Shown in pieces: positions 4,416-26,474 of a DNA stretch of 26,474 nt. The position numbers and the translations under genes were made by a program. Every line of letters starts with the position of its first letter. The first letter of the stretch is position 1. The stretch is taken from IMG/VR virus record IMGVR_UViG_3300032083_000243, positions 1 through 26,474 of that record, one strand, 5' to 3'. The notes beneath the pieces are model-generated. The model was not told the origin of the DNA. It saw only the letters and a list, made by a program, of their open reading frames with translations, and searched no databases. Source of the DNA: a virus.

Positions 4416-4678
4416 TGAATACCAGAATGTTTAACTATAAAGATAAGTCAGTGATGTTTATTAACTGTAGTCTTGATCACTGTTACAACACTGTTGACTA
4501 CATGATAGAGAGAAACAAGAACAACGGATACTGGAAGCCTAGACTCTATGATGACTACGATCAGGATCATCCATCAGTTGAAAGTATCTATGACTGGATT
4601 GAAATAAAGGACAGTGTTACTGACCTACCACCTGTCACTACTGATGAAATAGAGAGAGCGTACAATGACTTGCGTTGA
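4415..4678 (+). CDS. Small hypothetical protein (87 residues)
   Basis: ATG 4415 is served by AAAGGAGATA (4400-4409). The product begins MNTRMFNYKDKSVMFINCSL and is rich in Tyr, Asp and Asn, ending in an acidic helix EIERAYNDLR. No family recognised. Its last 14 bases overlap the start of the HNH endonuclease gene, so that gene was inserted, or acquired its start, without breaking this one. Confidence 0.65.
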   Translation: MNTRMFNYKDKSVMFINCSLDHCYNTVDYMIERNKNNGYWKPRLYDDYDQDHPSVESIYDWIEIKDSVTDLPPVTTDEIERAYNDLR

Positions 4679-5228
4679 AGAATGGAAACCTATGCCAAGG
4701 CTAGATCATTTATCTGATGAGCAAAATGATGAGTGGGTAAAAAAATATCAAATATCTAATCATGGTAGGGTGTGGTCTAATGTTACAAACATGATACGTT
4801 CTTGTTCAAAGAATGATGGTTACGTTATAATTACTGCAGCCGTAGGCAGTAAGTCTAAAGGTAATTTAAAATCAATAAATCAAAGAGTGCATCGTATGGT
4901 TGGTATGCAGTTTATCGACAACCCAGAAAACAAACCACAGATCAATCATATTAATCTTATTAAAACAGATAACAGAGTTGAAAATCTTGAGTGGTGTACA
5001 CTAGAAGAAAATATAAAACACTATCGGGAGACATCTAACAATGAACATTTAAAGACTAAATGGGAAAGCCCTTACTCACGTTTTACGGAGGAGCAGTACA
5101 AATATATATGGGATAACTACAAGGAAAGACATGAAGAGTTTGGTGCTAGAGCTTTGGCTAGAAAGTTTAGAGTACATCACTGCACAATATTAAAAGTTTT
5201 AAAGGAGAAAGAGGATGAGATACAATAG
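4665..5228 (+). CDS. Free-standing HNH homing endonuclease with NUMOD4 and HTH parts
   Basis: A 187-residue protein predicted to make site-specific DNA breaks that promote spread of its own gene. Parts in order: an N-terminal NUMOD4-type segment (about 24-50, KYQISNHGRVWS); an HNH_3 core (about 75-112, RVHRMVGMQFIDNPENK, then NHINLIKTDN and RVENLEWCT) with H76, H95, N103 and E109 as likely active-site or metal residues; and a C-terminal helix-turn-helix (about 150-180, ARALARKFRVHHCTILKVLK) that probably reads the target. The gene overlaps its neighbours by 14 bases on both sides. It looks more AT rich than its surroundings, in line with recent transfer. Not needed for growth, if it behaves like its family. 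Confidence 0.9.
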   Translation: MTCVEEWKPMPRLDHLSDEQNDEWVKKYQISNHGRVWSNVTNMIRSCSKNDGYVIITAAVGSKSKGNLKSINQRVHRMVGMQFIDNPENKPQINHINLIKTDNRVENLEWCTLEENIKHYRETSNNEHLKTKWESPYSRFTEEQYKYIWDNYKERHEEFGARALARKFRVHHCTILKVLKEKEDEIQ

Positions 5229-16897: not shown

Positions 16898-16930
16898 AAA
16901 CCCCCAGGAATTAACTGGGGGTTTCTTTTT
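16898..16930. terminator. Bidirectional terminator between convergent blocks
   Basis: Perfect 10-bp stem AAACCCCCAG (16898-16907) / CTGGGGGTTT (16915-16924) with a 7-base loop. Plus-strand transcripts end in CTTTTT (16925-16930); read on the minus strand the stem is followed by TTAGTTTG, so it also has a U-rich side. The plus-side T tract overlaps the stop codon of the 1116-residue minus-strand gene. It insulates the replication block from the virion block. Confidence 0.9.
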
Positions 16931-19900
16931 AGTCGTATGGTTCGTTCTCTCGTATGTTTGGAACTATGGCTAGAAGTTTCATTCTTCTTGTTAATTCATC
17001 CGATATAGTCTCAGACTCAGCCAAGTACTCATCTGCTGTATTGAACCCAAGGGTTTGTGCAGCAGTGTTTAAGTTTTGCTTACCGCCTTTATCTTTAGAA
17101 TAAATTATATAATTATTTCTAATGTACCCTCTAGCTTTTATCTTACTCTCATTTTCTGATAAGAAAGAATCAAACAAAGCTTCGACTTGTTCTTTTTCTT
17201 TTCTTATTTTCTTTCTAATCCAACCCTCAAGAAGATTGGCTTTGTCTAGGTTTGAAATACTATCACTGGCTACAATCTCATCGTAAGTCATTTCCCCATA
17301 CTTCTTTGAAGCAGGAGCTTTAGACTTCCAGTTTTCAAAGTCTTTGTACATTGACTTAGCTAGTCTTTCTCTTAAAACAAGATCAACGTTAGCACTCTTT
17401 GTTGCAGTGCTTCCATATATCTGCCAGTTCTTTAAATTGTATCTAGACATTTCTTTTTGTAGTGTTGTCAACGGTGGCTCTGCTGTCCTACCAGTAATCT
17501 GTTTTAGAGCAGGGTTTACTTTACCTCTAGCTACAGGGTTGTCAAAGTCATAGTAAGCAATGTCTGTCTCATCATTAAAAGATTGTAGGTACTGTCTAGA
17601 TCTCACATCAGGCAACATCCTCAGTGCTCTGTTGGTCATCTCAGCACCACTGTAGTCTAGCTTTACATCATCTGTGATTGCTAGTTCTCTGGTGTAAGGA
17701 TTACCTGCTTGATCATAGTCTGCTTGTCCTATCAAGTCTCTTGCTATCGCACCTGGCATTGTAAAGGTAGATAAGAAATCTCCAAACTTTTTCTCTAAGT
17801 CTGGTGTTATTTTTTGTTTTGCTACGGCATCTAATATTGCAACAGGAATACCAAGGTCAAAAGAAAATTCTGGTATACCACCAAGAACATCTTGTAAGTC
17901 TCTCTTTAGCTGATCTGTGTTATCAAAAGAAGTAGGAAGACCATTCTCTTTTCTCCACGCTTGATCACCTAAATACATATGAAACATAGCAGCACCTAGT
18001 AAAGGTTTGAGATCCTCTTGTGCCCCTAGCTCATTCTTTATAGATCCGTAATCAACTTCGCCATCTCTATCTTTAGCTATCTGATACCCTGCAAACAACA
18101 TCATAGCTCCAGTGGTTTGACGTGCATATCTAGTGGCATCATCTCTAGCACCTTCAGTTAGACCTGATCTATGTAACATCTCTCCAAGGATAGGGGCGTA
18201 GTCAGATACCATCTGTAGGTGATTGCCTAAATATCTTGGGAAGGGAACACCTGCTGCTGCTGAAACCAGGAATGGTACTTTTCTATTTAAGTTTACTAAC
18301 CCTCTTGTTGTGCTTGCTAGTACGGAGTCAGCACCTCTAAAGTCTCTCTGCATGGTAAGTCTGTTTGCGTCATCGACAGCAAGGTTTAGATCTATTCCTT
18401 CTGGTAGGTCTTCTAACTTTGTGTTTGTCCTTAACCAGTCAGACATGGACATACCTTTATCTCTGAACTGTCTCTCTAGGTTTCCGTAGAATATACCCTC
18501 TTTAAAAACAGAGTCAGAGAGAGTGTTAGCCATGTTTACAAACCTACCTACTCTGGCTAAAACTCCACTGCTTTCCATACCAACCTCAAGTCTCATAGCT
18601 TGATTGTATAAACGCATGGATTGCTCTGGCATTTCCTCTAACATAATCTGACGTAGTAATTTAGCTTCTGTGTTGTTAAAAGAAAGACCTCTAACAACGG
18701 ATGTCATGTTAGGTATAAAAGTTTTTATTTGAGATGCGTCACCAGTAAGACCTTTGTAGATAGCCTTGTTAACTTGGTCTATCATATCTGTTCCAATAAG
18801 GATACCTACGTTGGTTAAGTTACGCATTGTAGTAGCAGGTTGAGAAGTCATAAAAGATATTCTCATGGTATCTAAGTCTTGTAAAAATCTAACACCAACA
18901 TTTCTAGAGTTTCTAACTGCTGCTGCAGATATTTCCTGTGCGTCTTGACTGCTGATAGATGAAGCACCCTTAGAAAATAAAACATCTATGTCAGGTGCTT
19001 CGTCTAAGTTTATCTTAGCACCACGTTTTATAGCACTCTGAAACCCTAGTGTTTGACCTGCTCTTGATACCTCAGATAAGTAGATCATAGAGAACTCATC
19101 TTTGGAAAGACCATACTTATCTTTTACATCCTTGAGTATTGTAAATACTTCTTGACCCTCTCCATCTCTCAGCTTGTTAGATATAGCCTCAGTAATTCTT
19201 ATATCACCACTCTTAGTATCTAACTTTAAATCTCTCATGAGATCTACACTAGCAGCAGCAATACCTCTCATTGTTTGTACTGAAAGACCAGAGCTAAACT
19301 CTGGGTTTGCTTTTGGATCTGACATTGCGTTAAGGATAGCTCTACCCTTGGCTACACGTTCAGGATCTAACCTACCTTTTATCTTAGCACCTCTTACTCC
19401 TGCACGAGCAGACAGTATATCCTCTACATCAGCTACGATATTCATAGCCTGTTTCTTCTCAGCGTCTGAAGCAGCCTTTATAGTTCCAAGAGATTTTTTA
19501 GCAGCCTCTTCTGCTTGCTTCTTAAATGTAGTGTTTCTTTCCAACATTACATCTTCTACTTTTTTAGCTCTACCTCTACCTATTCTCCCAGAGATGTATC
19601 CTGTAGCTGCACCAAAAGTTCCTTCAGTCACAGCACCCACAGTAGAGTCAAAGATTAAATCTTTTGTTGTGTACTCTGGACCTACCCCAAGCTCTTCCCT
19701 AGTTTCACCCTGCTGTTTACCCTGGAATCCAGAGACAGCAGCACCAGTTACTGCACCTGTACCTGCGTCTTTTACAGACTGTCTTGCAATAGAAGACTTA
19801 AGTACATTCTTCTTTAGAGTTTCTTTTAGACCTGCTCTGACAGCTAACTGAACACCTTTAGATGCTATTTTAGCCCCTACTTTTCCAAGACCAAAACTAG

Positions 19901-20279
19901 CAAACCCCAAGTAAGTAGACGGTGCTGTAATTGCTCCTTCTGCAAAGTCTCCAAGACCATCCAAGAAACCTGTACCTGCTTCTTTAGAATTATCCCACGC
20001 CTGAGTCAACCTACCAAAAGCTTGCTTACCTTTGTAGCTAAAGTCTTTGTTGCGAACATAATTTAAATCTTTTGTGGCAGTAACTTCGTTGACTGATTGT
20101 GCTCTCATGTGTTCTATAAAATCTTTAGTTAGATTTTCAAAACCCATTTCTCTCATTTCATCTTTGGTATACTTGTACCTACCACCACTAAAGAAACTAA
20201 CTAAGTCTCTTTTAAAATCATTGTCTTCAACAAGATTAATAAAACTAGAGTCAGGTGCTTTTTGTACGTAAGTGCTCAT
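16929..20279 (-). CDS. Giant internal virion (ejection) protein candidate (1116 residues)
   Basis: A 1116-residue protein, last in the minus-strand operon. After a charged N-terminal 100 residues come glycine/alanine-rich hydrophobic stretches (about 101-146, 172-185 and 211-237; for example ITAPSTYLGFASFGLGKVGA) that could insert in membranes, then a long mainly helical body with an uncharged segment near two thirds of its length (SAAAGVPFPRYLG). Size and position resemble T7 gp16, the largest ejected core protein, but I see no transglycosylase motif here; a lysozyme domain lies instead in the gene at 21747. Role as a DNA-ejection channel component is inference. The start overlaps the upstream stop by one base. 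Confidence 0.8.
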   Translation of the reverse strand: MSTYVQKAPDSSFINLVEDNDFKRDLVSFFSGGRYKYTKDEMREMGFENLTKDFIEHMRAQSVNEVTATKDLNYVRNKDFSYKGKQAFGRLTQAWDNSKEAGTGFLDGLGDFAEGAITAPSTYLGFASFGLGKVGAKIASKGVQLAVRAGLKETLKKNVLKSSIARQSVKDAGTGAVTGAAVSGFQGKQQGETREELGVGPEYTTKDLIFDSTVGAVTEGTFGAATGYISGRIGRGRAKKVEDVMLERNTTFKKQAEEAAKKSLGTIKAASDAEKKQAMNIVADVEDILSARAGVRGAKIKGRLDPERVAKGRAILNAMSDPKANPEFSSGLSVQTMRGIAAASVDLMRDLKLDTKSGDIRITEAISNKLRDGEGQEVFTILKDVKDKYGLSKDEFSMIYLSEVSRAGQTLGFQSAIKRGAKINLDEAPDIDVLFSKGASSISSQDAQEISAAAVRNSRNVGVRFLQDLDTMRISFMTSQPATTMRNLTNVGILIGTDMIDQVNKAIYKGLTGDASQIKTFIPNMTSVVRGLSFNNTEAKLLRQIMLEEMPEQSMRLYNQAMRLEVGMESSGVLARVGRFVNMANTLSDSVFKEGIFYGNLERQFRDKGMSMSDWLRTNTKLEDLPEGIDLNLAVDDANRLTMQRDFRGADSVLASTTRGLVNLNRKVPFLVSAAAGVPFPRYLGNHLQMVSDYAPILGEMLHRSGLTEGARDDATRYARQTTGAMMLFAGYQIAKDRDGEVDYGSIKNELGAQEDLKPLLGAAMFHMYLGDQAWRKENGLPTSFDNTDQLKRDLQDVLGGIPEFSFDLGIPVAILDAVAKQKITPDLEKKFGDFLSTFTMPGAIARDLIGQADYDQAGNPYTRELAITDDVKLDYSGAEMTNRALRMLPDVRSRQYLQSFNDETDIAYYDFDNPVARGKVNPALKQITGRTAEPPLTTLQKEMSRYNLKNWQIYGSTATKSANVDLVLRERLAKSMYKDFENWKSKAPASKKYGEMTYDEIVASDSISNLDKANLLEGWIRKKIRKEKEQVEALFDSFLSENESKIKARGYIRNNYIIYSKDKGGKQNLNTAAQTLGFNTADEYLAESETISDELTRRMKLLAIVPNIRENEPYD

Positions 20280-21208
20280 TATGGATTATACTCTTGGTTA
20301 ATAATTGTCTCTTCAACAGTATCAGGATCTTCAGGCATTGGTCCTTGGAAAGCAGGAGGAATTTCAAATGTTTTATAGCTCTCTGCAATATCTCTCAAGT
20401 CTATGCTTCGATCTTCAGTCAGAGCGTCTACTCTTTCAAAAATATCTTTAATAACTTCAGCCCCACTTCTTGACTTTAATGAATCAGACATTTCATTAAC
20501 GTAAAAATTTACTGCGTTGTTTAAAATTTCACCTGAAGCATCTGGGTTTGTATATTGTAATTGACCAGTGTTAGGATTTGTCGTTGTTTCAAGTTGTGTT
20601 TTTAAATTAGCATCTATCAATTCTCTAGCTGCTTTTATATCTGCAGGATCATAGTCTACCAAACCTCTTTTGTTAATGTCAAAAGGACTTATGTTTGGAG
20701 CAACACGAGTGGTAGGTGACGTGTTCATAAACGCAGAGATAGCTTCATCATAATCACTTAGTGATGTAGCATGTATAGCCTCTACTAGTTTGTCAGAACT
20801 TGGATCTTCTGCAGCCCCTAAATCAAAAGCGTACTTCATAGCAGCACCTACTTTTTCAGGAGGTACACTTGTGACAATAGCCTCACTAAATCTTTTTAGT
20901 CCTGCTTTGTTTATTTTCTTATCAGGATCTTCAGACTGCTCTATCTTTTTTAAATAACCTATGGTGCTCGACAGTTGACCAGTAGAGTACAAAACTGCAG
21001 CAGCCTCTTCATCAATATTAAATTTATCTGCTTCAGCTAATAGCTTTGCTCTTTCTGCTCTAGCTTTCTTTAAGTTAGCTCTCTCTTCAAAACCTGCTTT
21101 TAACATGTAATCTTGAAGCATACCCTGCTTTGCTTTCAGATACTCTCTGTTTTCTTTCATGGTATCTGCTATATTACCTAACGCAGCCCCTAAAACTATA
21201 CTAACCAT
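20279..21208 (-). CDS. Virion-block protein with N-terminal coiled coil (309 residues)
   Basis: ATG at 21208 (reading leftward) follows GAGGTAGC, inside the upstream gene's end. The protein begins with a small hydrophobic segment (MVSIVLGAALGNIADTMKEN), then a long charged helix rich in Ala, Lys and Glu (about 20-75, KKARAERAKLLAEADK), followed by acidic helical sequence and a proline-rich C-terminus (IPPAFQGPMPEDP). This suits an internal or neck virion protein of T7 gp14/gp15 type. No family is recognised. It sits between the 170- and 1116-residue genes with almost no spacing. Confidence 0.75.
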   Translation of the reverse strand: MVSIVLGAALGNIADTMKENREYLKAKQGMLQDYMLKAGFEERANLKKARAERAKLLAEADKFNIDEEAAAVLYSTGQLSSTIGYLKKIEQSEDPDKKINKAGLKRFSEAIVTSVPPEKVGAAMKYAFDLGAAEDPSSDKLVEAIHATSLSDYDEAISAFMNTSPTTRVAPNISPFDINKRGLVDYDPADIKAARELIDANLKTQLETTTNPNTGQLQYTNPDASGEILNNAVNFYVNEMSDSLKSRSGAEVIKDIFERVDALTEDRSIDLRDIAESYKTFEIPPAFQGPMPEDPDTVEETIINQEYNP

Positions 21209-21212
21209 TTTG

Positions 21213-21725
21213 CTACCTCGCCATTAAACCTTTAGGTTCTTCTTTTATTTCTTCTTCAACTGGTTCTTCTTTCATAGACTCAGCAGCTTCTTTAACTATT
21301 TCAAATCCTTTGTCTCTCTCACCTTTAGGTGTTGATGCAACAGCGTTATCAAAGATAGAAACACGTTCAGCCATAGTCATTTTATCAGGCTTAAATGTTT
21401 CTTTGTAATTTACCCCTGCCATGTCAGCAGCCTTCATCATAAAGTCTCTGACAATAGGTTCAACAATAAGACTTACATCTATACTGTGAATACCTGAACC
21501 CACTGCCGCTGTCATCATAGACTCAGCTAGTGTCTTAGCAGGTATTCCAAATTCAAGAAGATCTAGTACGTTATCTATAACATCCTCATCTGCTATCCTA
21601 TCAATATGAAACTTAATAGCGTCATTAGGGTCTGTCATTTCAGGTGGTCTTTCCCAGGGATAGTTCTTAGGATAGTCCGTAAGAGATTGTCCTGGCACTG
21701 CTGCCATAAGTGCTGCTTCTGTCAT
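21213..21725 (-). CDS. Conserved-type structural-block protein (170 residues)
   Basis: ATG at 21725 with GAGGAAAG upstream. The N-terminus MTEAALMAAVPGQSLTDYPK followed by YPWERPPEMTDPNDAI resembles a protein seen in several marine myo- and podoviruses next to virion genes, of unknown role. The middle is helical (IDNVLDLLEFGIPAKTLAES, then HSIDVSLIVEPIV), and the C-terminal 20 residues are a strongly acidic Glu/Pro tail (EEPVEEEIKEEPKG). It could be a chaperone or minor virion component; the resemblance is from memory. Confidence 0.75.
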   Translation of the reverse strand: MTEAALMAAVPGQSLTDYPKNYPWERPPEMTDPNDAIKFHIDRIADEDVIDNVLDLLEFGIPAKTLAESMMTAAVGSGIHSIDVSLIVEPIVRDFMMKAADMAGVNYKETFKPDKMTMAERVSIFDNAVASTPKGERDKGFEIVKEAAESMKEEPVEEEIKEEPKGLMAR

Positions 21726-21746: not shown

Positions 21747-22580
21747 TTATTTAAGGCTCTTGTCTTCATTATATCTTTTATAAATATCTTCTGCAGCAGA
21801 GACTCTTTTATTTAATTGAGGTTTCCCAGGTCTTAAATAGTGGTCAGATGTAGCCTTTGCAGCTTCTACTAATGAATCAGTGTTTAAAATTTTATTTAAA
21901 GCACTTTTCTCTGTTGTATCAAACTCCTCTGAAATCATTGCCCAGTTACCTTCATAACTTTCTGGAGGTAAATCTCCAAGTTCTTTTAATAGACTTTCAA
22001 AATCATCTCTTCTATCTCCTGTCCATTGTGCAAAAGCTAGACCACCTTTAGATCCTTTAACGGTAGGTTTAAGTTCTTGCATAAATTTAAAACCACCTGT
22101 CTCATGCCAGAAATTACCGACAACTCCTGCAGCTTGTTCTGTAGTCATACCAAACTGTGACTTTAAATCTTCTATTAGTTTAAAAGAGGTATCGTATGCT
22201 TTGTCTAGGGTTACGCCAGAACTTTTAGAGAATGTAGATGTTTCCTCTAAATTACCAGTTACAGGGTCTTGTTCAATATCCATCTTTGCTTTAGATTCTT
22301 TAAACTCAGGAGATTCATTTTCACTAGCAAAAACTTCTCCTAGTATCTGCCCCCACCCACCTGCAAAAGCAAGCATAGTATTAGAATCATCCTTTGATTT
22401 ATTTTCAGAATCATTTTCTTTCTTCCTTGTAACAGGTTTTGCAATGTTTAAATCTACAGGAGGAGAGCCAAGAGCTTTTGATTGACGCTTTGTCCCAGGA
22501 TCACTTATACTTAACTCAGGATTACCCTGTTCAAGCATTATTCTTTTTCTTCTTCTATCTTGTGCTGTTGTTAAACTCAT
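21747..22580 (-). CDS. Virion-associated lysozyme (phage tail lysozyme domain)
   Basis: A 277-residue protein starting at 22580 behind AAGGAC. The first 120 residues are polar and probably disordered. Residues about 128-265 form a Phage_lysozyme2-type domain: FGMTTEQAAGVVGNFWHETGG (143-163) with E160 as likely catalytic acid, and GLAFAQWTGDRR (180-191), the family hallmark. It should cut peptidoglycan locally during DNA entry. Its place among the large proteins of the minus operon, rather than in a lysis cassette, fits an entry role. Lysis use cannot be excluded because no other endolysin lies in the window. Confidence 0.88.
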   Translation of the reverse strand: MSLTTAQDRRRKRIMLEQGNPELSISDPGTKRQSKALGSPPVDLNIAKPVTRKKENDSENKSKDDSNTMLAFAGGWGQILGEVFASENESPEFKESKAKMDIEQDPVTGNLEETSTFSKSSGVTLDKAYDTSFKLIEDLKSQFGMTTEQAAGVVGNFWHETGGFKFMQELKPTVKGSKGGLAFAQWTGDRRDDFESLLKELGDLPPESYEGNWAMISEEFDTTEKSALNKILNTDSLVEAAKATSDHYLRPGKPQLNKRVSAAEDIYKRYNEDKSLK

Positions 22581-22597: not shown

Positions 22598-25456
22598 TTA
22601 AGTAAAAGGCAGAGCTTTTAAAAGTAACTCTCCGATAAAATTACCAGTTTGTTGTTTAGCCCCTATTTGAGCCTGTAACTCTGCAACATCTATCTCAGCA
22701 TCAGCAGCCATCTTTTGAAGTACAATACTGTTAGCCCTGTCAGCGTTACCCTCTGACACTTGGAAAGCCATAGACAATATATCTCTTTCTCTCTGCCATA
22801 TTGAGTCAAGGTTAGTAGATGTCAAAGCGTTTATAGTCTGAGCAAAAGCCATGTTACTTTCGTTCTGTGCAGAGGTGTTAAGTGTTGCTAAGTTCTGTCT
22901 CCACTGAGCGTTAGCCTGTGCTATCACCAAACCATTCTGTGCGTTAAACAAATCTCTTTGCTGTTGTATCTGTGAGTTAAACTCTCTCAGTGCGTTGACA
23001 CTGTTGACGTTAAACTGATCCATTGCATTTGTTTGGACAGCGTTAAACTGTGACGTTTGACCTGCTAGGTTAGCAAAGAACTGATCAGTTTGATTTTGGT
23101 TTGCTGCGTTGAATTGTTCAGCAGCGTTCTCTGCAGCCTGATCAGTAAACAAAGACTGTATGTTTTGTTGTGCTTTGAACACTTCTGTCTGTTGTCTGTT
23201 TGACAGGTTAGACATATCCATCTGTAAAAAGTTTTGAGCGTTCTGTACAGAAGCCTGTTGTCTGTTGGATAGGTTAGCCATATCTAGTTGAGATAGAGCA
23301 GCAGCTTCTGCCATAACCATAGACTGTCTATTAGACAGATTGTTTAACTCCATAGTGTTAGCTGCACGAGAATCCTCTAGAGCTATCTGTTGTTCAGCAG
23401 TAAAGTTCATGTTAGCTACGTCAGCAATTTTAGCTGCGTTCTGTACACGAGCCTGAAATGCTTGATCAAACTCTTGCCCTATAAACTGAGCACGTTGTTG
23501 TGCTGCAAGCATAGCACGTTGTTGTCTGTTAGACAAGTTCTGTGCTTCAAACTGAGCCTGTGTAGCAGCATCTATTTGTGCGATAGGTATTGCAGACTCC
23601 ATAGCAGCCTGAACAATAGCCTGTCCTGCTATAGAAGACGCACCAATACCTCTTGAGATCATAGCGTTGGTAGCTGCTCTCATAGCTCCTGAAGCCCAAG
23701 CAGGTGTGTTACCACCCTCGAACTGAGCCATCAATCCTTCTAGCTGACCCTGCACTGTAGCCTGTTTAGTAGGAGTAGCAGTCTCAGCTTCTACAGCTTC
23801 AGTAAAAGCCCTAGCAGTCTCAGCGTTAGCAGAACCAGAGATAATTTCACTCTCACCTGATACAGGATCTGTCTCTAGTTTTCTGGCTGTTGGTCCATCT
23901 ACTTTTATTTCTTTTCCTTGAGCCACTGGCCCACCAACAGATGTTTCAAGTTGCTGTTGTGCAGTTACTTCTTTTGTGAGTGTGTCTTGTTGAGCAGGTT
24001 GTAACGCACCAGTTACAGTTTGCACCTGTGGTGTTGCAAAGGCAGGATTCATAGCTGTTATGGGTGTAGCTAAAGGCATTGGTGCTTGCTGTGTTGTGCC
24101 TGTTGTAGCAGCTTCAGCAAACGGAGCTATAGGTACAGTCATACCTGCATCTACTGGTATAAACTCTGGAGCAGTAGGTTGTATTCCTGCTATTTGTGCT
24201 TGGATAGGCTGCATAGTCTGACCTACCAAGTTAGCACTCATTTGAGCTAGAGGATTAACAACAGCAGTAGTTTCACCAGTAACTTCTGTACCAACTGTAG
24301 GGTTATCTGTTGCAAGAGTACCTTGTTGAGCACCCATACGCATACCACCCATATTCATCATAGCTTGTCTGTACTTACCCATACGAGCAGCAGCAGCAGG
24401 GCTAGACTGTAAGAAGTTATCAAGCTGATCATCAGGTGCGTCTTCTGGAAAACCTAAAAACTTTTTAGCTAGTGTAACATCTCCACCTTCAAACATTGCT
24501 ATTGTAGAATAAGGGTAAGGAACGTTGTCAGGGTTTCTTGGTAATTTCACTTGTACGTTAGGATCACCTTGTGATTCAGGTGTAGGTGTTGTTTGTTGTG
24601 GGTTTGTACCCTCTTTAAAAAAACCAGGTGGCACGTTAGTAACAGGTTTACCGTTAAATTCAGTAATCATTATTGATTGATTTGTTTGTGGGTTTATGTA
24701 CCGAACTTGTTGATAACCTGAAGTAATCTGCTGACCTGATCCTGGAGCAGTAGTAACTAATGTTTGAGGAACTGCACCCTGAGTTCCTGCATAGTGGGTT
24801 TTATAAGATATCTGTTGAGGAACAGCAGACAATCCTGCAGTTTGTATAGGCGTAGAAAACGTTCCTGTTTTAGGTGCTTGTCCCATCACAAATGGTTGAG
24901 CTTGTGTAGTTTGTGTCACAGGAGTTTGATACGTAACAGGTGCTACTTGTTGTACAACAGTCTTAGGAGTATCTGGAATTATAGGAGCTACTTCGTCAGC
25001 TTGTAGTTCCAACACTTCTGTTGAAGGTGCAGTTGGTACAAAGCTACCACCTGCAACATCAGGATTAAAAGGATCTACAGGTACTACAGGTTCTACTACA
25101 GGCTCTACTACAGGCTCTACTACAGGCTCTACTACAGGCTCTACTACTTCTTCAGGTACTACAGGTTCTACTACAGGCTCTACTACAGGCTCTACTACAG
25201 GCTCTACTACAGGCTCTACTACTTCTTCAGGTTTTTCACCTTCTGCGTAAAAACCTTTTATATCCAAATAAGATCTAGCATCTTTTTCATCTTTAAAAAC
25301 GTATTGTCTTGAATTTTTTCTGCCAGTAGAACCAAGAACTGTTTTATTACTTAGTCTATCACCGTCAGCCGTTTCTAAATAAACCTTATTGCCGCTTTTA
25401 ACGATCTTGACCTCATCACCTTTGTCAACTTTAACTAAATCTTCGTTAATAGCCAT
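22598..25456 (-). CDS. Large virion protein with EPVV rod and 22-residue helical repeats (952 residues)
   Basis: Start at 25456 behind AAGGAGAAG. Parts: an N-terminal basic/acidic domain (1-75, containing QYVFKDEKDARSYLDIKGF); two blocks of five Glu-Pro-Val-Val tetrapeptides (81-100 and 106-125); a Pro/Gln/Thr-rich low-complexity region (about 130-500); and, from residue 640 to 925, thirteen consecutive 22-residue units, several opening with NLSNRQQ and others with an 11-residue QFN rhythm. The C-terminus (KALPFT) is short and hydrophobic. The repeats predict a long continuous helix or coiled coil. With the lysozyme, 170-, 309- and 1116-residue genes it forms what looks like an internal virion set. 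A tail or fibre protein is the alternative. Function inferred. Confidence 0.85.
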   Translation of the reverse strand: MAINEDLVKVDKGDEVKIVKSGNKVYLETADGDRLSNKTVLGSTGRKNSRQYVFKDEKDARSYLDIKGFYAEGEKPEEVVEPVVEPVVEPVVEPVVEPVVPEEVVEPVVEPVVEPVVEPVVEPVVPVDPFNPDVAGGSFVPTAPSTEVLELQADEVAPIIPDTPKTVVQQVAPVTYQTPVTQTTQAQPFVMGQAPKTGTFSTPIQTAGLSAVPQQISYKTHYAGTQGAVPQTLVTTAPGSGQQITSGYQQVRYINPQTNQSIMITEFNGKPVTNVPPGFFKEGTNPQQTTPTPESQGDPNVQVKLPRNPDNVPYPYSTIAMFEGGDVTLAKKFLGFPEDAPDDQLDNFLQSSPAAAARMGKYRQAMMNMGGMRMGAQQGTLATDNPTVGTEVTGETTAVVNPLAQMSANLVGQTMQPIQAQIAGIQPTAPEFIPVDAGMTVPIAPFAEAATTGTTQQAPMPLATPITAMNPAFATPQVQTVTGALQPAQQDTLTKEVTAQQQLETSVGGPVAQGKEIKVDGPTARKLETDPVSGESEIISGSANAETARAFTEAVEAETATPTKQATVQGQLEGLMAQFEGGNTPAWASGAMRAATNAMISRGIGASSIAGQAIVQAAMESAIPIAQIDAATQAQFEAQNLSNRQQRAMLAAQQRAQFIGQEFDQAFQARVQNAAKIADVANMNFTAEQQIALEDSRAANTMELNNLSNRQSMVMAEAAALSQLDMANLSNRQQASVQNAQNFLQMDMSNLSNRQQTEVFKAQQNIQSLFTDQAAENAAEQFNAANQNQTDQFFANLAGQTSQFNAVQTNAMDQFNVNSVNALREFNSQIQQQRDLFNAQNGLVIAQANAQWRQNLATLNTSAQNESNMAFAQTINALTSTNLDSIWQRERDILSMAFQVSEGNADRANSIVLQKMAADAEIDVAELQAQIGAKQQTGNFIGELLLKALPFT
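22682..23539 (-). repeat. Region coding thirteen 22-residue (2 x 11) repeats
   Basis: Residues 640-925 of the 952-residue protein divide without a single gap into thirteen units of exactly 22 residues. Units 1, 4, 5 and 6 start NLSNRQ; units 3 and 8-13 start N or F in the same phase. Within units 7-10 an 11-residue beat is plain (QFN, QFF, QFN, QFN, EFN, LFN). In DNA the strong copies share a TGTCTGTTAGACA-like core at 66-base spacing. Confidence 0.85.
25088..25228 (-). repeat. 12-bp tandem repeats in a duplicated 75-bp block (EPVV coding)
   Basis: Five copies of a 12-base unit (25088-25147; first unit AGGTTCTACTAC, then AGGCTCTACTAC) plus TTCTTC and AGGTACTAC are followed by a second identical set (25163-25222 plus TTCTTC 25223-25228), an offset of exactly 75 bases. 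Perfect identity of units indicates recent expansion. Confidence 0.95.
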
Positions 25457-25466
25457 TTACTTCTCC

Positions 25467-25721
25467 TTACTTACCCATTGTCATCCACACTGCACCTGCA
25501 ATAAACGTTAACAGTGCGACAGTGGCTAATTTAACTACAGTAGACCAGACAGATTTACGTGTGTCTCTCCAAGCCTCTAACAAACTTCTCATCTCTATAA
25601 TATCTCTGGCTGCAGCATCATCAAGTAACCCAATAGAACGTAGTGCTTCTTTAGCACCACGTCTAGCTGCGTTGTCTAGCATTTCCTCTAGATCGTCAGG
25701 GGTAAGTTTGATGTCACTCAT
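25467..25721 (-). CDS. DUF6127-like one-span membrane protein, holin candidate (84 residues)
   Basis: Start at 25721, overlapping the preceding gene by 8 bases. Residues 1-55 are an acidic, alanine- and arginine-rich helical head (TPDDLEEMLDNAARRGAKEA, then GLLDDAAARDIIEMRSLLEAW), and residues about 60-80 form one hydrophobic helix (VVKLATVALLTFIAGAVWMT) before a short tail. The head pattern matches the DUF6127 group of small phage proteins as I remember it. A single C-terminal span with a charged head is compatible with a holin or spanin-like role (compare T7 gp17.5), but neighbours are virion genes, so function is open. Confidence 0.75.
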   Translation of the reverse strand: MSDIKLTPDDLEEMLDNAARRGAKEALRSIGLLDDAAARDIIEMRSLLEAWRDTRKSVWSTVVKLATVALLTFIAGAVWMTMGK

Positions 25722-25923
25722 TTACAGTTTCTAGTGAGTTAGAAAGCATACTAATAAATGCTTCACGTCCTACGCTAAGTTGATTAACATTAAATTTAGC
25801 ACTTGTTAATTTACGGTCTAAATCTTGAATATGATTTAACATATTTTTCTGTTGATCCGTTAAGTCTTCTATAAAATATTCTTTATCGTTAATTGATATA
25901 GGGGTTTTTTTATTTTTTGCCAT
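25714..25923 (-). CDS. DUF6447-like small protein (69 residues)
   Basis: Start chosen at the second ATG (25923), which has AAGGAAGG at a normal 8-base spacing; the first ATG (25929) would leave only two bases. The product begins MAKNKKTPISINDKEYFIED and continues LTDQQKNMLNHIQDLDRKLT with a helical end. The pattern 'I-ING-EY-IEDLTD-QK-ML-HIQ-LD-KL' fits DUF6447 proteins, common in marine phages beside virion genes. A coiled-coil helper role is likely; the exact function is unknown. Confidence 0.8.
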   Translation of the reverse strand: MAKNKKTPISINDKEYFIEDLTDQQKNMLNHIQDLDRKLTSAKFNVNQLSVGREAFISMLSNSLETVNE

Positions 25924-25947
25924 TACCATTTCCTTCCTTGGTTAAAT

Positions 25948-26222: not shown

Positions 26223-26474
26223 TTATCCTTCTAATTTTGCAATGTTGATATTGCCTGAGATTGAAATACGTTCCCCATCATTGTCATAAAAGGGAAACAC
26301 CTGATGAAGCATGGTTGATGGAAACATAACCATGTAACCCTCTGCTTCTTTTTCCATGTTGTACGCAAAAGTTGATACCCTGCCCAACGTATTTGTGTAG
26401 CTAAATGCAAAGTTAGATATGTGGTTATCTGCATTTGAGTTGGCACAAATAGGAAGTTTCTTTTGCTCTGCATA
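26223..26474 (-). CDS. 2OG-Fe(II) oxygenase-like protein, C-terminal part only
   Basis: Open from the window edge to TAA 26225-26223, giving the last 83 residues. The end YMVMFPSTMLHQVFPFYDND followed by GERISISGNI is the hallmark of the 2OG-FeII_Oxy_5 family: a hydrophobic strand, FPS, the distal iron-binding His (H57 of the fragment), and R69 for 2-oxoglutarate. An upstream EKEAEGY segment precedes it. These phage proteins are usually encoded among virion genes, with unknown substrates. The N-terminal HxD part lies outside the window. A longer-looking frame with an ATG overlaps it but is only a shadow. Confidence 0.85.
   Translation of the reverse strand, partial: YAEQKKLPICANSNADNHISNFAFSYTNTLGRVSTFAYNMEKEAEGYMVMFPSTMLHQVFPFYDNDGERISISGNINIAKLEG

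Follow-up and report, generated by a model that had tools for sequence, protein, structure and literature searches.

A 952-residue protein encoded in the window, by which we mean the whole 26.5 kb virus record (IMGVR_UViG_3300032083_000243) with the gene layout of an HMO-2011-type podovirus, carries a long helix of 11-residue (hendecad) repeats. What is new here is that the length of this helix, taken between two conserved anchors, is quantised across its relatives: it equals 8 modulo 11 in 278 of 279 distinct relatives, over a range of 140-778 residues. Judged from sequence, the protein is best read as one carried inside the virions of HMO-2011-type podoviruses and ejected from them. These phages occur ocean-wide, and their DNA-delivery proteins are without annotation.

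Genomic setting and layout of the repeat protein

The early genes of the window lie on the plus strand and code for a primase-helicase, DNA polymerase A, phage endonuclease I, MazG and a B12-dependent ribonucleotide reductase; the late genes, which include the features collected in Table 1, are on the minus strand. A NUMOD4-motif HNH homing endonuclease gene (4665-5228) sits amid small early genes, and the 3' end of a 2OG-Fe(II) oxygenase gene, truncated by the end of the contig, is found in the late region (26223-26474). In HTVC033P two 2OG-Fe(II) oxygenase genes and a ferrochelatase-annotated gene lie just upstream of the repeat gene. In the window the repeat gene is immediately preceded by a gene for a DUF6127 protein with one membrane helix, and a DUF6447-like protein is encoded there as well (25467-25721 and 25714-25929); CRP-1 and CRP-2 also have an 84-aa gene immediately upstream. 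A weak PHROG match hints at a possible holin here.

Table 1. Features of the repeat protein and of the gene block that follows it in the window
Feature	Position	Strand	Basis
952-aa protein (P0001), carries the hendecad helix	22598..25456	-	homologs: 27 phage records, hundreds of IMG/VR contigs
PVVE-repeat linker with recent 75-bp tandem duplication (98%)	25074..25232	-	DNA repeat
Q/T/P/A-rich low-complexity region, residues 134-560	23777..25057	-	sequence
Conserved N-anchor, residues 584-623	23588..23707	-	alignments; helical in AF2
Unbroken hendecad (11-residue) helix, residues 624-931, 28 units	22664..23587	-	phase scan, lag statistics, AF2 all helix
Variable C-terminal tail, residues 932-952	22601..22663	-	comparison with relatives
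277-aa protein, Phage_lysozyme2 (phage tail lysozyme) domain	21747..22580	-	PF18013, E=2e-21
170-aa protein, family downstream of repeat gene	21213..21725	-	223/223 testable loci of relatives
309-aa protein, third block member (300-930 aa in relatives)	20279..21208	-	synteny
1116-aa protein, final block member, T7 gp16-sized	16929..20279	-	orthologs of 817-1671 aa

The N-terminal part of the protein contains a PVVE/PEEVV linker encoded by 12-bp repeats, in which the duplicated copies are nearly identical at the DNA level, while the DNA of the helix in the same protein is diverged. The low-complexity region that follows is probably disordered, to judge by its composition. The N-anchor has the motif TPAWAxGA..RGxGASSxAGQA..ESA, contains no classical membrane helix and immediately precedes the PIA at which the register starts. 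In relatives the C-terminal tail is frequently small-residue or amphipathic, and in some it is extended by S74 or CWVAREVYG-type domains.

The hendecad register is unbroken over 28 units

The sequence-only reading had described thirteen gapless 22-residue units at residues 640-925 (22682-23539), and both the repeat and its coordinates hold: NLSNRQ(Q/S) opens the units at 640, 706, 728 and 750, and the QFN beat is present as a QF/QFN pattern over about residues 782-837. The periodicity check that it called for is significant at lags 11 and 22. At lag 11 the self-identity reaches 0.185, where shuffles give 0.096 (z=5.2, 0/5000 shuffles), and at lag 22 it reaches 0.220 (z=7.1, 0/5000); lags 33, 44, 55, 66 and 77 are raised too, and at lag 7 there is no rise relative to shuffles. 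A family profile of the 11 positions was built from residues 635-844 and their counterparts, and the protein was scanned with it in 33-residue windows. One phase was best in all of these from residue 613 through 910-942, usually by 15-57 bits, and it extends to residues 855-931, outside the training set; upstream of residue 613 the expected phase does not win. As the same phase wins throughout, the register is unbroken over about residues 624-931, longer than first reported, with a natural start at P624 and a weakening of the pattern near 931. With the α-helical rise of 0.15 nm per residue, these 308 residues, or 28 hendecads, come to about 46 nm if wholly α-helical, which agrees with the earlier estimate that the helix would suffice to cross an envelope.

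AF2 modeling of residues 563-952 with 74 sequences returned only helix (pLDDT 70, pTM 0.26), as had been expected of the repeat. The model breaks near 660, 705 and 770, and its last helix, 776-951, is unbroken; the CHOED ortholog gave an unbroken 139-residue helix (pLDDT up to 94, pTM 0.28). These monomer predictions back the helix and cannot reveal a barrel or any oligomer, and a Foldseek search with the AF2 model was uninformative, as expected of a low-pTM helix. Pfam and PHROG scans of the 952-aa protein and eight relatives yielded nothing usable except the S74 and phrog_6121 matches of the CRP-3 protein. PDB profile searches with the 952-aa protein and three neighbors recovered no phage homolog, including the T7 or P22 ejection proteins, and neither profile nor single-sequence searches of the PDB matched phiX174 H (4JPP). 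Matches of the 170-aa family to designed pentatricopeptide proteins were dismissed as chance, with no stretch passing alone. No 19-residue window reaching 1.6 was found in the N-anchor, helix or C-tail of 265 proteins, i.e., no membrane segment.

Helix length is quantised across relatives

tblastn recovered 27 related phage records, among them Roseobacter CRP phages, Puniceispirillum phage HMO-2011 (gp25), Pelagibacter HTVC103P/104P/115P/033P, Vibrio CHOED, Pseudoalteromonas Slicky01, Aeromonas MQM1 and Rhizobium and Sinorhizobium phages. The relatives span phages of Roseobacter, SAR11, SAR116, Rhizobium, Vibrio, Aeromonas and Pseudoalteromonas, in line with the earlier remark that marine phages have NLSNRQQ-like sequences. 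Hundreds more were found in IMG/VR and a few in bacterial genome bins. HMO-2011 gp25 is 58% identical over residues 496-944 and shares its gene neighbors with the window protein, indicating both homology and synteny. Nearly all relatives are annotated 'hypothetical protein'; one (MW202701.1, L089:5366-7957) is named 'huntingtin', evidently a Q-rich false match.

Length was measured between a PIA motif ahead of the helix (P624) and an NxxW motif inside it (W852), both present in nearly all relatives and located by HMM and regular expressions with some hand correction. In the main set, whose members were gathered partly with NLSNxQQ-like patterns that favor repeat-rich proteins and are related rather than independent, 264 of 265 distinct relatives lie at 8 mod 11, with 14 length values from 151 to 778. 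The lone exception (L104; 317) has one additional residue near the C-anchor. All 14 held-out relatives, with an anchor spelling missed earlier, are in register (L312 after correction by eye) and add a class at 140. In bacterial genome bins seven relatives could be measured, at 228, 250, 426, 536, 426, 162 and 162, again all 8 mod 11, the 250 being a hand correction of a mis-anchored 241. The two halves of the anchor span are each quantised on their own, and the flanks follow no mod 11 rule (43 distinct W-to-stop C-tail lengths, p=0.97; 198 distinct N-part lengths, p=0.69). On a FastTree tree of the anchors there are at least 31 changes of length class, an approximate figure because many branches are weakly supported. 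No proline occurs within the helices of the 265 relatives.

Given that duplication of whole units yields multiples of 11 anyway, the telling point is not the probability of such multiples but the scarcity of off-register insertions and deletions: the helix segment has diverged to about 30-40% identity among relatives, and off-register indels are nearly absent from it. Ordinary coiled coils put up with stutters of 3 or 4 residues. Apparently the register is kept more strictly here, and stutters would not be tolerated. The lengths at 8 mod 11, the unregulated flanks, the absence of proline and a DNA too diverged for slippage together indicate that the helix must keep its register. A more than fivefold change of length with the register kept amounts to a natural experiment on the constraint in helix bundles, in which only whole hendecads appear to pass.

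The register is maintained at the protein level

A competing explanation would make the register a mere by-product of tandem duplication of DNA, with no structural meaning. In its favor, the length classes 228, 338, 448, 558, 668 and 778 rise in steps of 110 residues, and the 668 and 778 classes show exact 20-mers repeated at a spacing of 330 bp and an identity reaching 45-54% at a lag of 110 residues. The helices of 668-778 residues (L287, L288, L289, L293, L319 and L329) have been amplified as such 110-residue (330-bp) blocks, and from the 330-bp recurrence and the 110-residue identity it follows that recent growth occurred by DNA-level amplification. However, the window has no tandem repeat in its DNA corresponding to the 22-residue units, which places the repeat at the protein level; exact repeats in its helix-coding DNA do not exceed 13 bp, and DNA identity at a lag of 66 bp is 43% against 41 ± 1% in synonymous shuffles. 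With the helix DNA near shuffle level, the register itself must be maintained at the protein level. Moreover, off-register indels are frequent in the flanks. We therefore find the by-product explanation hardly credible.

Gene neighborhood resembles an ejection-protein block

In the annotated relatives inspected, the repeat gene is followed by genes of about 165-190, 300-930 and 817-1671 aa that reach the end of the late operon, the block being often interrupted by one or two small genes. The first of these is the family of the 170-aa protein, which occurs downstream of the repeat gene in every locus with room for it (Table 1). This small, medium and giant series in the late operon parallels the ejection-protein block of podoviruses: T7 gp14/15/16 are 196/747/1318 aa, and ejection proteins have been paired by size and synteny (PMC8954989). 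The sizes and order of the last three members hence support the proposal that the repeat gene adjoins a block of ejection-protein-sized genes, and two orthologs of the giant protein match PHROGs named virion structural protein. The likeness to T7 gp14/gp15/gp16, P22 gp7/gp20/gp16 and Sf6 gp11/gp12/gp13 lies in the position and sizes of the downstream genes, whereas HMM matches are absent and the window block has an additional first gene, the one with the hendecad helix. No description of a hendecad-quantised length in the T7, P22 or Sf6 ejection proteins was found in the literature searched, and a search for virion proteomics or mass spectrometry of the relatives found none.

The window has its tail-lysozyme domain protein between the repeat gene and the 170-aa gene, an arrangement that is not general; adjacency of a lysozyme gene to the repeat gene, seen in about 15/249 loci, was rejected as a conserved feature. 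In HTVC103P (gp58) and Slicky01 a basic, glycine-rich protein adjoins the repeat gene.

Faces of the helix and a possible DNA conduit

Simple amphipathicity, as a hydrophobic Fourier peak, is not significant; this argues against an ordinary two-stranded coiled coil and prompted an analysis of two faces, in which hydrophobicity has a small first harmonic (p=0.89) and a larger but non-significant second (p=0.13-0.20). On a helical wheel of 98.2 degrees per residue, position a (0 degrees) is 49% Gln with 1% bulky hydrophobics (N/Q/R 53%), and position h (327 degrees) is Gln, Ser, Ala or Asn, likewise with 1% bulky hydrophobics (N/Q/R 38%). Hydrophobic residues are found mainly on two flanks, one formed by d (295) and g (229), the other by e (33) and b (98); the most charged positions are c (196) and j (164), f (131 degrees) is 68% Asn, and the Gln direction is -34 degrees (p=0.04). 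With only eleven positions to go by, this layout is suggestive of a helix with two neighbors round an uncharged lumen.

As in the microvirus pilot protein H, the helix consists of hendecads. The H-tube of phiX174 (Microviridae; PDB 4JPP) shares the long helix of 11-residue repeats in the phase of the family profile, with Gln at a and h and hydrophobic residues at d and g; its repeats read QKELTKMQLDN, QKEIAEMQNET and QKEIAGIQSAT, and N/Q/R line its lumen (PMC7354561). These three hendecads score positively in the family phase only (8.8 bits; next -12.8), with a column-permutation p of 0.064. The differences are that phiX174 is an ssDNA phage whose H has no detectable sequence homology with the repeat protein, that its 121-residue helix has 3 hendecads followed by heptads while the repeat-protein lengths run from 140 to 778, and that its decamer is proven while the repeat protein is known from sequence alone. 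A ten-helix tube is also on record for gp12 of podovirus Sf6, whose ten-fold tube was fitted by the phiX174 H structure (PMC4755594).

In light of these features, we consider it an evenly poised proposal that the protein is ejected and forms, by parallel association of its helices, an amide-rich barrel conducting DNA through the envelope, resembling phiX174 H in its action and tape measures in its evolution by units. The packaged protein would leave via the portal as flexible monomer chains, which would assemble outside with the downstream proteins to form part of a DNA conduit across the envelope. Several copies might lie next to one another as parallel, in-register helices, with contacts to two neighbors made by the d/g and e/b flanks of each; a and h would then line an uncharged, amide-rich lumen and c/j would point outward. 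Such a conduit would work as the phiX174 H tube does, but be longer and adjustable in 11-residue steps. The p values of the two-face pattern and of the phiX174 permutation weigh against this proposal, as do the low pTM of both AF2 models and the breaks in that of the window helix, the lack of an HMM link to the T7 or P22 ejection proteins in the PDB and a chaperone domain familiar from trimers in three relatives (see below). So too do the longest helices, which at 778 residues or about 117 nm exceed any periplasm, and the twofold difference between phages of related SAR11 strains (162 in HTVC033P vs 316 in HTVC103P). The latter two lengths also make a fixed ruler of the envelope unlikely.

The helix lengths, which are unrelated to the host, would suit a protein of the internal core, or one for packing, that forms no conduit but remains in the capsid, or is disordered there, and organizes the other ejection proteins or the DNA. 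Podovirus internal cores are helical and can be disordered (PMC13320782), and the acidic, Q/N-rich composition, disordered N-part and lack of a membrane helix fit such a role. We nonetheless judge it quite improbable, since disorder or loose packing does not readily account for a register kept strictly across as many as 778 residues, and the capsid, about 70 nm in MQM1, is too small for straight helices of 100-117 nm.

The unit logic of the helix is shared with the tape measures of long-tailed phages, which are helical, gain or lose 11-residue units, undergo bigger block duplications and tolerate some off-period changes poorly. Their length differs by 11-residue units and at times by whole blocks of these (44 aa; PMC3271669), and TP901-1 was impaired by some of the off-period deletions (PMC5099701). 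The blocks of 110 in the repeat protein follow the same logic, and a tape measure setting tail length in 11-residue units would account for them. Yet these are short-tailed phages, with no long tail to set. The MQM1 tail measures 9.2 nm (PMC10410586) against at least 184 helical residues (27 nm), and the earlier suggestion that the protein 'forms the tail' is, in this sense, unlikely. The repeat protein also has a Gln/Asn-rich face where tape measures have W/F markers only, and it lacks hydrophobic membrane segments of the TP901-1 kind. A tape-measure function is accordingly very unlikely in our estimate.

Should the protein indeed form a conduit, it would furnish a new model of envelope crossing by short-tailed phages, along with ready-made tubes in graded lengths. 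We would go further only tentatively, and with more doubt than confidence, in suggesting that one family of dsDNA tailed phages evolved, independently of microviruses, an ejected multi-helix, in-register hendecad conduit for DNA, its length altered in 11-residue quanta and 110-residue blocks over about 20-117 nm; if true, this would combine a tube like that of pilot proteins with the unit-wise growth of tape measures.

C-terminal additions in relatives

A Peptidase_S74 (endosialidase chaperone) type C-terminal domain is present in 3/265 relatives, CRP-3 (L087:8224-10083) by a PF13884 match and L148 and L156 by reading, a fusion that is unexpected on an ejected protein; a Pfam scan found none in the window protein, which in this respect, like nearly all other relatives, differs from trimeric fibers and spikes. 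Because of these three proteins, the main rival to the DNA-conducting barrel is a long right-handed coiled coil of three (or two) chains, a rod with a polar core that would serve as an external fiber or tail appendage. Hendecads fit right-handed coiled coils, whose core positions a, d, e and h can accommodate Gln, the S74-type chaperone is typical of trimeric fibers and spikes, the CRP-3 protein matches phrog_6121 'virion structural protein', and a fiber would easily accommodate the observed lengths. On the other hand, most relatives finish with a short small-residue tail, and short ones (460 aa) have only the low-complexity N-part, with no obvious fiber-attachment domain. Positions b and g are hydrophobic or Ala besides d and e, beyond the needs of a trimer, distinct tail-fiber genes lie upstream, and conservation resides in the helix rather than the tip. 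We thus regard such a rod as unlikely; if it were one, it would still be unusually strict and extendable.

A second C-terminal add-on, CWVAREVYG...WLxxxAPKW, is seen in about ten relatives: HMO-2011 gp25 (L002), L219, L225, L230, L234, L236, L239, L244, L245 and L255.
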